Assembly (NCBI RefSeq): GCF_007290395.2
Contig: NZ_CP041656.2
Location: 7,207,216-7,271,215, forward strand
Origin: Bradyrhizobium cosmicum
GTDB lineage: Bacteria > Pseudomonadota > Alphaproteobacteria > Rhizobiales > Xanthobacteraceae
DNA: 64,000 nucleotides
Reading direction: 5' to 3'
Shown: piece after piece, positions 46,202 to 49,384 of the stretch
Layout of the letters: every line of letters starts with the position of its first letter
Numbering within the stretch: position 1 is the first letter of the stretch
The notes under the pieces: generated by a model
What the model saw: only the letters and a program-made list of their open reading frames with translations
The model's database searches: none
What the model was told of the DNA's origin: nothing
Made by a program: the position numbers and the translations under genes

Positions 46202-46942
46202 TCACACACGGGAGAGTGAGGGCACCTCGTCCGGCATGATCGCCTGAAGGCCGCCGAAGCGGCGCTCGCGGCCGTGGAAGGAGGCCAAGGCGGCGGCAAG
46301 ATCGGCCGCGTCGAATTCGGGCCACATCCGCTCGGTGAAATGCAACTCGGCATAAGCGCCTTCCCAGAGCAGGAAGTCCGACAGCCGCTTCTCGCCCGAG
46401 GTGCGGATGATGAGATCGACGTCGCGAAGGCCGGCCTCGCCGGTGACAAGTTGCGAGAAAGCTTCTCGCGTGAGGCTCGTCAGTGCTGCCGCCTTTGCAG
46501 CCGCGTTGAGGATGGCGTCACGCGCGGAATAGTCGACGGCAATACGCAGATGAAGCGTGCTGCCGCCGGCTGTGGCATCTTCGGCGCGCGCGATCGCATT
46601 GGCGATGCCGTCGGGCAGGCGGTCGCGGCGGCCGATCACGGTGAGGCGCACGCCGTTCTTGACCAGACTCTGCACCTCGTTGGCGAGATAGAAGCGCAGA
46701 AGCGTCATCAGCGCGGCGACCTCGGCTTTCGGCCGGCGCCAATTGTCGGTGGAGAAGGCATAAAGCGTCAGCGTGCCGATGCCCTGCCTGGGCGCGGCCT
46801 CGACGATGCGCCTGATCGCCTCGACGCCGGCCTCGTGGCCGCGCAGGCGGGACAGGCCGCGCCGCGTCGCCCAGCGTCCGTTGCCGTCCATGATGATGCC
46901 GACGTGAAGCTTGTCGTCGCGAGGCGCAAGGTCGCTTTGCAT
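46202..46942 (-). CDS. uppS: UppS-like cis-prenyltransferase (polyprenyl diphosphate synthase)
   Basis: This 246-residue cytoplasmic enzyme condenses isopentenyl diphosphates into a long cis-polyprenyl diphosphate. The signature [14 protein letters not shown] holds the catalytic aspartate; [40 protein letters not shown] and the tail [10 protein letters not shown] are typical. It is not in the usual cdsA-dxr context, so it is probably a second copy with a special role. The ATG at 46942 follows GGAG by eight bases, and the ATG itself lies inside a perfect palindrome shared with the operon promoter. Confidence 0.9.
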
Positions 46943-46950
46943 TGCAAAGT
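46934..46950. promoter_or_regulatory. Palindromic operator at the uppS start
   Basis: The 17 bases GCTTTGCATTGCAAAGT contain perfect seven-base arms CTTTGCA/TGCAAAG around a central T. The uppS ATG (46942-46940) lies at its centre. Related sites occur at 48001-48034. Confidence 0.6.
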
Positions 46951-46969
46951 CTCCGGTCAAAAAGGGGGA

Positions 46970-47344
46970 TCAGGTCGAGACGATGCCGAGACGGCCGAGC
47001 GGCGGCGCCTCACGGCCGGCCGCCTTGGCGGCGTCGCGCACCAGGCGCTCGAGCACGGTGAGATAGTCGAGGAAACGGCGGCGGCCGGCCTTGGTCAGGC
47101 GGCAGGTGGTATGCGGGCGATTGCCCTCATAGCCCTTGGTCACCTCGACGAGCCCGGCTTCCTGGAGCACGGCCAGATGCCGGCTGAGATTGCCGTCGGT
47201 GAGGCCGCAGAGCTGCTTGAGATCGGCGAACGCCAGACCCTTGGGATGCGCCATCAGCGAGGTCAGAAGCCCGAGCCTCGCCTTCTCGTGGATCACGCGG
47301 TCGAGCCCTTCATAGGAGAACGGCGCGCTGTCAGTCTTCGGCAT
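46970..47344 (-). CDS. Winged-helix transcriptional regulator
   Basis: This is a 124-residue DNA-binding protein of the small ArsR/MarR-like winged-helix group. The HTH is LAFADLKQLCGLTDGNLSRHLAVLQEAGLVEVTKG and the wing is NRPHTTCRLTKAGRRRFLDYL. There is no separate ligand domain and no cysteine metal site. Of two adjacent ATGs, the second (47344) has the better six-base spacing from GGAG. It overlaps the end of the membrane-protein gene by 14 bases and precedes uppS by 27 bases, so the three form one operon. It probably binds the palindromes in this operon. Confidence 0.87.
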   Translation of the reverse strand: MPKTDSAPFSYEGLDRVIHEKARLGLLTSLMAHPKGLAFADLKQLCGLTDGNLSRHLAVLQEAGLVEVTKGYEGNRPHTTCRLTKAGRRRFLDYLTVLERLVRDAAKAAGREAPPLGRLGIVST

Positions 47345-47948
47345 CATGGTCTCCGGACGCGAAATACAGAATGCCCGCCATGACCGACTGCCCGATCACG
47401 AAGGGCAGTCCCATGGTCCAGGGCGAGAGCGTGTGGGTCCGGCTCGCGAGCAGAACGACCGCGAAGCCGGACAGGAAATACCAAGCTCCCGCGAGCGCGA
47501 CGCTGCGCGGCAGCGAGCGGACGGAGGCGAAGATGCCGAGCGACACCAGGATCTGCCACAGGCCGGGCAAGAGCCACAGCGTCTCGCTGGCGAACTTCCA
47601 CATCACCACCGCGAGCAGCACGCCGGCGACGCCGGCGGGAAGGAATTGCTCGACCGCCTGGTGGATCATGGCGTCGGCGAGACCGGAATGATGGCGGCGC
47701 GACCGCGCACGCATCTCGATGCCGATCATCAGGCCGGAGAGCGCGGCCGCCATGAACCAGCCCAGGAAGAAGGCGAGCGGCTCGCCGGTAGGGTCACCGA
47801 GCAGCCAGAATTGCAAGATCGCGGTGAAAAGCGCGACGGCGCCGGTCGCGGCCATCGTGGCCGGGCCATAGCCGCGGAACGCCGTACCCGCCGCGATCTG
47901 GCTGCGGATCTCCACGATATCAGCCAGTGCCTTGTCGAGATCGCGCAT
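47331..47948 (-). CDS. Six-span membrane protein of the uppS operon
   Basis: This is a 205-residue integral membrane protein that I do not recognise by function. A cytoplasmic N-terminal helix (MRDLDKALADIVEIRSQIAAG) precedes about six hydrophobic spans, from MAATGAVALFTAILQFWLL to VIGQSVMAGILYFA. I start it at the ATG at 47948. A frame opening at 48077 would read straight through a good promoter and tandem operators at 48001-48042. It is the first gene of the operon with the regulator and the UppS-like enzyme. Confidence 0.75.
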   Translation of the reverse strand: MRDLDKALADIVEIRSQIAAGTAFRGYGPATMAATGAVALFTAILQFWLLGDPTGEPLAFFLGWFMAAALSGLMIGIEMRARSRRHHSGLADAMIHQAVEQFLPAGVAGVLLAVVMWKFASETLWLLPGLWQILVSLGIFASVRSLPRSVALAGAWYFLSGFAVVLLASRTHTLSPWTMGLPFVIGQSVMAGILYFASGDHDAED

Positions 47949-48000
47949 CGGCAACGCCAAAGCCTCGCTCCGCCCTTGAAGTGCGGGGTCAAGCCCCGTT

Positions 48001-48042
48001 ACTTTGTATTGCAAAGTATATAGCAATGCAAAGTAAAGGCAA
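48001..48042 (-). promoter_or_regulatory. Promoter with tandem 17-bp operators for the uppS operon
   Basis: On the minus strand TTGCCT (48042-48037) and TATACT (48020-48015) are separated by 16 bases, a sigma70-type promoter. A near-perfect palindrome ACTTTGTATTGCAAAGT fills 48001-48017, and a half-degenerate copy with an intact TGCAAAGT arm abuts it at 48018-48034. Both overlap the -10 region or spacer, as repressor sites would. Confidence 0.65.
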
Positions 48043-48139: not shown

Positions 48140-49384
48140 ATGTGGCTTAGATCTTTTGTCGTGGCGTCTGTCTTGCATGTGATGCTCGCCGGGTTTGCAA
48201 ATGCGGCGGGGCCTTTCGGTACCATCCGCGTCGGCAACTGGAACGGGGGCGCCTATTCCAATGATTCGACCGGCGGATTTTCTCACTGCGCCGCCAGCAC
48301 GCCTTACGCCAACGGCGTCACCTTGCTTGTTGGCCAGGATGCAAACAATTCGTGGCTGCTCGGCTTTGCAAATCCCGCATTTCGTTTCAAGAAGGGCGAG
48401 AACCTAACGATCGACGTGACCTTCGACGGCCAGGCCGAGGTAAGACTCTTCGCGACTGCATTTTCCGATGTCATGGTTTCGGCGGTTCTGCCCACCAACG
48501 TCGCTCGCGCACTCCAGAAGGCGAGCCTGATGGTTGCGGTGGCGAGAGGCACGCCCTTTCAATTCAGCCTGACATCAACTGCCCCTTTGGTAGCCGCGAT
48601 TACCAATTGTGTGACCAGAGTCAAAGCCGACGGCCTGGACAAGGCCGGCGATTTCACAAAGGTTGCCGCCAAGCCGCAGGAGACGCCGGACAAGCCGCCG
48701 TCACCAACGGCCGGCAAGCCCGCCCGGGCCAGAACCGGCACCGGCTTCGTGGTCAGCGCCAACGGGCACGTCGTCACCAACAATCATGTGATCGACGGCT
48801 GTGTCGGCGACATCAAGGGTAACCTCACCGGCGAAGCGGCCATGGTGTTGCGCGTCGTGTCGAGCGACGCGAACAACGACCTCGCTCTGTTGCAGGCGCC
48901 ATCGACGGCGACATTCAAGGACTTTGCGCGGATTCGCGACCGCTCGCTCCGCTCCGGCGATTCCGTCATCGCGATCGGCTTTCCCTTCCATGGCTGGCTC
49001 ACGTCGGACTTCACCGTGACGACCGGTATCGCGAGCTCGCTCAGCGGCATGCGCAACGACACGCGTTTCCTGCAAATCAGCGCGCCGGTGCAGCCCGGCA
49101 ATAGCGGCGGCCCGCTGTTCGACACCACCGGGCAGATCGTGGGCGTGGTCACCGCTAAGATCCCCGCACTGCGCATCGCCGCAGCGACCGGCACCATTCC
49201 GGAGAACATCAACTTCGCCATCAAGACCGGCATGCTGCGCGACTTCCTCGACAATTCCGTGGTGCCCTACCAGACCGCGGAACCGAAGGGCGAGCTCAAG
49301 ACCACCGACATCGCCGGCAACGCGCGGCCGTATACGATGCTGATCTCGTGCAACGGCACGGAGCAAGCCGACGCGAAGCGGTGA
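48140..49384 (+). CDS. Secreted trypsin-like serine protease (S1C-like)
   Basis: This 414-residue exported protein has a signal peptide ending near GFANA. Residues 25-160 form a domain I do not recognise, with a two-cysteine pattern (SHCAAS, TNCVTR) and NGVTLLVGQDANNSWLLGF. After a proline-rich linker comes a DegP/HtrA-like protease core with His in TNNHVIDG, Asp in NNDLALLQ and Ser in PGNSGGPLFD. No PDZ domain follows; the tail ends at a short cysteine-containing segment. GGGGGAAG precedes the ATG. Confidence 0.88.
   Translation: MWLRSFVVASVLHVMLAGFANAAGPFGTIRVGNWNGGAYSNDSTGGFSHCAASTPYANGVTLLVGQDANNSWLLGFANPAFRFKKGENLTIDVTFDGQAEVRLFATAFSDVMVSAVLPTNVARALQKASLMVAVARGTPFQFSLTSTAPLVAAITNCVTRVKADGLDKAGDFTKVAAKPQETPDKPPSPTAGKPARARTGTGFVVSANGHVVTNNHVIDGCVGDIKGNLTGEAAMVLRVVSSDANNDLALLQAPSTATFKDFARIRDRSLRSGDSVIAIGFPFHGWLTSDFTVTTGIASSLSGMRNDTRFLQISAPVQPGNSGGPLFDTTGQIVGVVTAKIPALRIAAATGTIPENINFAIKTGMLRDFLDNSVVPYQTAEPKGELKTTDIAGNARPYTMLISCNGTEQADAKR

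Follow-up and report, generated by a model that had tools for sequence, protein, structure and literature searches.

A membrane protein, a small winged-helix regulator of the HTH_34 family and a second cis-prenyltransferase (UppS2) are encoded by a conserved three-gene operon in the window (the whole stretch of DNA that was analyzed, which makes up the final 64 kb of a one-contig genome of 7.27 Mb), and copies of one 17-bp palindrome (ACTTTGYRNYRCAAAGT) lie over its promoter and on the uppS2 start codon. We believe, with a probability of roughly 0.7, that these genes constitute an autoregulated module in which a membrane protein and a winged-helix repressor control an isoprenoid-lipid enzyme. 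At the level of sequence, the order of the genes, the conservation and placement of the operators, the confinement of exact motif matches to this operon and the exchange of the genes behind the membrane-protein/regulator pair (the cargo) can be read directly, and they suggest a dedicated, so far undescribed lipid-making circuit. Among the matches listed in searches of the open-access literature, no description of the operon, the motif or the set of cargo genes was found. Polyprenyl carrier lipid is available to bacteria as a small pool that has to be rationed, and a conserved one-operon circuit for an extra cis-prenyltransferase, with a precise predicted operator, would offer a handle on lipid control in some alphaproteobacteria, including the bradyrhizobia.

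Reading frames and sequence place the membrane-protein gene first on the minus strand of the window, followed by the regulator gene and then uppS2 (Table 1). The first two genes share a 17-bp overlap, and 27 nt separate the regulator stop codon from the uppS2 ATG, which bears out the first-pass annotation of a minus-strand operon whose members overlap or nearly touch; the promoter that it proposed, TTGCCT-N16-TATACT, is likewise in place. The program that listed open reading frames had given uppS2 a TTG start at position 46960, which is unnecessary because the ATG at 46942 stands behind GGAG. Upstream of the operon promoter, a divergent gene (48140-49384, plus strand) encodes a trypsin-like protease, a relative of which is present in 35 of the 80 named loci described below.

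Table 1. Features of the operon, with positions counted from the first letter of the window.
Feature	Position	Strand	Basis or remark
uppS2, second cis-prenyltransferase, 246 aa	46202..46942	-	ATG at 46942, inside cargo operator; PF01255, E 1.7e-73
Cargo operator ACTTTGCAATGCAAAGC	46934..46950	-	uppS2 start codon at centre; 1 mismatch to ACTTTGCANTGCAAAGT
T-tract TTTTT	46959..46963	-	ends exactly 8 nt upstream of cargo operator
HTH_34 winged-helix regulator, 125 aa	46970..47347	-	PF13601, E 2.2e-21
Membrane protein, 205 aa	47331..47948	-	ATG at 47948; predicted N-terminal helix and six long helices; AlphaFold2 model
Promoter operator ACTTTGCAATACAAAGT	48001..48017	-	covers -10 element and expected transcription start; 1 mismatch to ACTTTGCANTGCAAAGT
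-10 element TATACT	48015..48020	-	sequence; TAT before operator in 76 of 93 distinct loci
Operator half-site ACTTTGC, in -35/-10 spacer	48028..48034	-	75 of 93 distinct loci match at least 5 of 7 letters
-35 element TTGCCT	48037..48042	-	sequence; TTGC at same place in 72 of 93 distinct loci

The window contains three matches to the palindrome ACTTTGCANTGCAAAGT at three mismatches or fewer, compared with 0.07 expected from shuffled sequence, and none of 100 shuffles reached three. Two of these matches differ from the palindrome by a single letter (Table 1), and the third, at 48018-48034, has three mismatches, all of them in the arm that forms the -10 region. Across 93 distinct loci, the only part of this upstream site that is kept is one arm, ACTTTGC, at an offset of 17 bp upstream from the main operator; the five other offsets tested gave no such match. 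The promoter therefore carries one full palindrome and a half-site rather than the two full, abutting 17-bp sites that were first claimed for it. Strong conservation in the 93 distinct sequences is confined to CTTGC (-26 to -22), ACTTTGC (-17 to -11), TAT (-3 to -1) and the palindrome itself, and falls to background outside these promoter elements. Moreover, the motif recurs upstream of orthologous operons, the promoter operator being present at no more than four mismatches before the membrane-protein gene in 94 of the 94 loci scored (80 named loci and 14 from the family search, with L077 left out), a level reached by 9 of 2640 random 230-bp flank windows. The exception, L100, lies outside the scored set; it has all three genes, but no site at four mismatches or fewer, the promoter operator included, is found in the stretch available. 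In L215, the promoter site is weak.

Exact matches to the degenerate motif were found in 19 of 41 related genomes, at 34 places that all belong to this operon (G010, with two operon copies, accounts for four of these sites), and the reversed pattern used as a control gave none. A relative of the regulator with at least 86% identity is present in the same 19 genomes and only in those, while some relative at E ≤ 0.001 is detected in 26 of the 41. A blind scan for the motif in 385 alphaproteobacteria returned exact matches in five genomes, each at this operon, and in one genome for the reversed control; two of the five belong to families not met before. In the window's own genome, relaxing the search to two mismatches gives a count at the control level (8 versus 10). 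Since exact copies occur only at this operon in 19 of the 41 genomes, the regulator probably acts locally. An operator that lies over the operon's own promoter and is conserved together with the regulator is what an autoregulated operon should possess, and the conservation of the motif in all scored loci, combined with its co-occurrence with the regulator, makes autoregulation with separate control of the cis-prenyltransferase, as the first-pass annotation proposed, well supported by comparative sequence analysis. The palindromes might instead be bound by another DNA-binding protein encoded elsewhere, an idea that draws on the presence of a 42% identical paralog of the regulator in the genome and on the fact that binding by the operon's own regulator is predicted from sequence. 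We regard this as most improbable, however, given that the motif and the operon regulator share the same 19 genomes, that paralogs at about 41-42% identity also occur in genomes that lack the motif (G014, G018 and G022, for example), and that the motif follows the membrane-protein/regulator pair into lineages with other cargo. The paralog in the window's genome (L186, G000:C1:6373500-6380500) lies behind a small gene that overlaps it and whose product looks like a membrane protein, with no Pfam match, an arrangement that fits a general pairing of membrane protein and regulator.

The regulator scores 76.3 bits against HTH_34 (PF13601), for which the Pfam gathering cut-off is 27, and its nearest solved chain by sequence is 1ub9 (PH1061; E 3.9e-7). 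Although it thus shares a domain with PH1061 above a curated cut-off, it differs from known HTH_34 members in having an invariant cysteine, a constant membrane-protein partner and a defined operator. No characterized member of this HTH_34 subfamily appears in the titles and abstracts of the literature matches listed. The cysteine, Cys47, lies just before the recognition helix and is invariant in 15 aligned regulator sequences; it is possible that it serves as a redox or ligand handle. Irrespective of the cargo, regulator and membrane protein are found together in all loci examined; the most likely role of the latter is that of a sensor or ligand handler. Profile searches matched the membrane protein to no Pfam or NCBIfam family, and its AlphaFold2 model (mean pLDDT 86.7), a six-helix bundle with an N-terminal helix, has no match at E ≤ 0.001 among solved structures (Foldseek, PDB). 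The named entries among 120 listed relatives of this protein (of 4023) are from Bradyrhizobium.

Residues 7-234 of UppS2 (of 247 translated) align with E. coli UppS, and the motifs MDGNGRW, GH, NW, IRT-GE-R and YAEL, which contain the residues that matter in cis-prenyltransferases, are aligned in the two proteins with one conservative difference (SENW in the E. coli enzyme, TDNW in UppS2). The window's genome has two UppS matches, only one of which is the window copy. By eye, the second adjoins the rpsB, tsf, pyrH, frr, cdsA, dxr and rseP genes, and so has the frr-uppS-cdsA neighborhood expected of a housekeeping gene, whereas the window copy sits with the membrane-protein/regulator pair; the possibility that the window held the sole, housekeeping uppS of this genome can thus be set aside. 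In addition, UppS2 passes the NCBIfam model NF011412 (PRK14839) with 430 bits against a cut-off of 334, compared with about 265 bits for the other genomic UppS, and no score above the cut-off was seen in 14 control genomes. C. difficile likewise has a second UppS beside its housekeeping copy, thought to serve a separate pathway (PMC4973711). That uppS2 sits in a polysaccharide locus, whereas the conserved unit discussed here contains no polysaccharide genes and has a local regulator at its head. These observations bear on a different, tentative explanation, in which UppS2 would provide spare undecaprenyl-diphosphate capacity while the membrane-protein/regulator pair senses something unrelated, such as an envelope-active compound, and raises the supply of carrier lipid under stress. 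We hold this to be possible, though doubtful: the main E. coli UppS motifs are kept in UppS2, and both extra UppS copies (PMC4973711) and control at the level of UndP (PMC11081497) are known elsewhere, but UppS2 belongs to a family apart from the housekeeping enzyme on the NF011412 scores, and in three loci (L106, L129 and L191) the pair precedes genes of the linalool dehydratase/isomerase (Ldi) and DAGK families, with no UppS.

The three-gene order is found in many alphaproteobacteria, in samples that overlap and include many close relatives, so that the following counts are not independent. A family sample of 198 genomes contains 23 in which NF011412 exceeds its cut-off, and 8 of the 11 genomes of the genus are positive. 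All 23 have the membrane-protein and regulator genes upstream of uppS2 in the same order; in L077, the contig end truncates the membrane-protein gene. At no more than four mismatches, the promoter operator is found in 22, the relevant DNA being missing from L077, and 21 have a site close to the start of uppS. Among the best 80 of 438 named loci returned by a search with the regulator alignment, which include Bradyrhizobium, Methylobacterium, Rhodobium and Faunimonas, both the membrane-protein and regulator genes are present in 80, and uppS2 comes next in 76. When the order was searched with the membrane-protein alignment, 25 of 279 genomes were positive, and all 25 have the three genes in sequence; at four mismatches or fewer, the promoter site is found in 24 and the cargo site in 23 of them, L100 having neither. 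The membrane protein was detected in 13 of 398 genomes of a phylum sample and in 2 of 249 genomes of the family of G605 (sphingomonads, by match to the named locus L102). On these figures, the module is spread through one order and is patchy beyond it. In G010, a distance of about 0.55 Mb on a single contig separates the two operon copies (L009 and L029), both of which have the promoter and cargo operators.

The palindrome copy that the first reading placed on the uppS start codon proves to be real and conserved, being present at no more than four mismatches in 77 of the 80 named loci (it is missing in L102, L103 and L140) and, in a set selected for diversity, in 42 of 49 distinct contexts. 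An ATG occupies its centre in 73 of the 77, and an RBS-like sequence precedes it in 67. The cargo operator is not essential, since L078, L080, L098, L100 and L140, in which it has more than four mismatches, all retain uppS2. In L076, L078, L079, L080, L098, L100 and L140, the operon is kept with the cargo operator lost, weakened or displaced, and the T-run discussed below is absent. Codon usage was compared in the 37 of 41 loci with an ATG at the operator centre, leaving out L074, in which the ATG has moved and the operator remains, and L078, L079 and L080, which have no operator with an ATG there. The second codon of uppS2 is CAA in 36 of these 37 loci, as against 88 of 520 glutamine codons (17%) elsewhere in the three genes, and the third is AGT in 28 of 37, as against 36 of 1112 serine codons (3%); codon 4 varies. 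On this codon bias, codons 2 and 3 are under constraint at the DNA level.

A run of at least five T residues precedes the cargo operator in 72 of the 77 named loci, compared with fewer than 1% of random 25-mers, and where the run has at least four (74 named loci), its end lies exactly 8 nt before the operator in 71. Of the 42 contexts in the diverse set that bear the operator, 33 have TTT ending at 8 nt and nine do not have it; a distance of 2-7 nt is not seen in any. The consensus of 93 distinct loci has no T-tract at the 8-nt distance from the promoter operator. It is possible that the tract serves as part of a repressor-assisted stop, as a DNA bend or as a second contact, and its fixed spacing from the operator may reflect a novel way of controlling transcription within an operon. 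The central AUG and the RBS-like sequence before it could also be taken to mean that the palindrome at the start of uppS works at the mRNA level, folding around the AUG and controlling translation as a thermometer or translational operator. That seems very unlikely, because the same sequence covers the -10 element of the promoter and because the repeat persists without a central ATG in L106, L129, L208 and L191, with TTT at the same upstream distance; altogether, six of eight distinct contexts whose operator has no central ATG retain the T-tract, among them the Ldi cargo of L106, L129 and L191. Within the window's genus, the T-tract continues into a -35-like sequence, TTGACC, so that the cargo operator might mark a second, internal uppS2 promoter that is also repressed by the regulator. 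This, too, is quite unlikely in our judgment, as most loci from outside the genus do not retain TTGACC and inspection by eye reveals neither a -10 element at a workable distance nor any conserved promoter at the cargo operator.

In the autoregulated circuit that we favor, the HTH_34 regulator would bind the 17-bp palindrome as a dimer. Since the operator covers the -10 element and the expected transcription start, the regulator is predicted to be a repressor, and its binding at the promoter operator would, from the position of that site, silence every gene of the operon, that of the regulator among them. Binding at the cargo operator, which lies 1027-1206 bp from the promoter operator (76 loci), would add repression, for which an RNA polymerase stalled at that site or a loop joining the two operators is the likeliest mechanism. 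Operons of the lac type have an internal auxiliary operator. C.Kpn2I is described as exerting roadblock control from a site in coding sequence (PMC6237814), and in both cases, as here, a second site is located in the transcribed region, at or inside a coding region. Compared with these systems, the predicted site here differs in that it coincides with the ATG of uppS2, the final gene, roughly 1 kb away from the promoter operator and with a T-tract at a fixed distance. The membrane protein would sense or handle a signal that relieves repression, and the circuit would then most likely make or top up polyprenyl phosphate or alcohol. A partial parallel is found in B. subtilis, in which SigM controls the use of undecaprenyl phosphate (PMC11081497): a membrane protein and a transcription factor are tied to carrier-lipid supply, as we propose here, but that system is a sigma/anti-sigma pair rather than one built on a winged-helix regulator, and lipid sensing in the present operon is a proposal. 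A more specific version, which we consider unlikely, is that the membrane protein gauges a prenyl lipid and releases or holds the repressor, with the T-tract and cargo operator forming a repressor-dependent terminator that would cut off only the enzyme while the sensor pair is still expressed. If this were true, cargo of the Ldi and DAGK families would point to a new route comprising polyprenol making, isomerization or dehydration, and phosphorylation.

Cargo other than uppS2 is found behind the membrane-protein/regulator pair in several lineages. In L106 (Sphingomonadales), L129 (Boseaceae) and L191 (G1043), the pair is followed by Ldi-family and DAGK_prokar genes without UppS. The Ldi assignment rests on Pfam matches in L106 (E 6e-58) and L129 (E 1.5e-58) and on 47% identity to L106 in L191, and the kinase was identified in the same way (E 1.5e-33 and 3e-30, and 49% identity, respectively). 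All three have the operator in the 5' part of the Ldi gene, with 3 mismatches in L191. Pair, UppS, Ldi and DAGK genes occur in that order in L139, L178, L216 and L217 (the Ldi of L139 and L178 by Pfam, the rest by tblastn; L178 is apparently the same genome as G752 and L183/L219). These lineages with UppS, Ldi and DAGK lend support to the dedicated polyprenyl-lipid function that the first-pass annotation suggested, in which both the product and the part played by the membrane protein are putative. In the Sphingorhabdus-like loci L102 and L103, genes for a VIT-domain protein and an exosortase follow the pair (by Pfam in L102, whose genome is apparently that of G605, and in L103 by identities of 67% and 73%), with the promoter operator only, and this exosortase-type cargo has no obvious fit to a polyprenyl theme. 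L189, also Sphingorhabdus-like, has the pair followed by a VIT-domain protein, again with the promoter operator only. The promoter operator is retained by pairs without uppS in L102, L103, L106 and L129. Swapped cargo of the Ldi, DAGK and exosortase families points to functions for which we found no assignment.

Ldi is rare, being detected in 6 of 385 alphaproteobacteria, and in one of those six genomes it lies in this operon; the window's genome has no Ldi match. In a tree of 41 chosen membrane-protein plus regulator rows, a branch (100/99) separates the Ldi-only and VIT loci from the uppS2 loci, and the cargo needs four changes on this tree, compared with 8.8 in shuffles. It is possible, depending on where the tree is rooted, that the ancestral state combined the pair with UppS, Ldi and DAGK genes and that losses followed. 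A gene for a B12-binding radical-SAM protein follows uppS2 in L136 and L142 (by Pfam) and in L150 (by eye).
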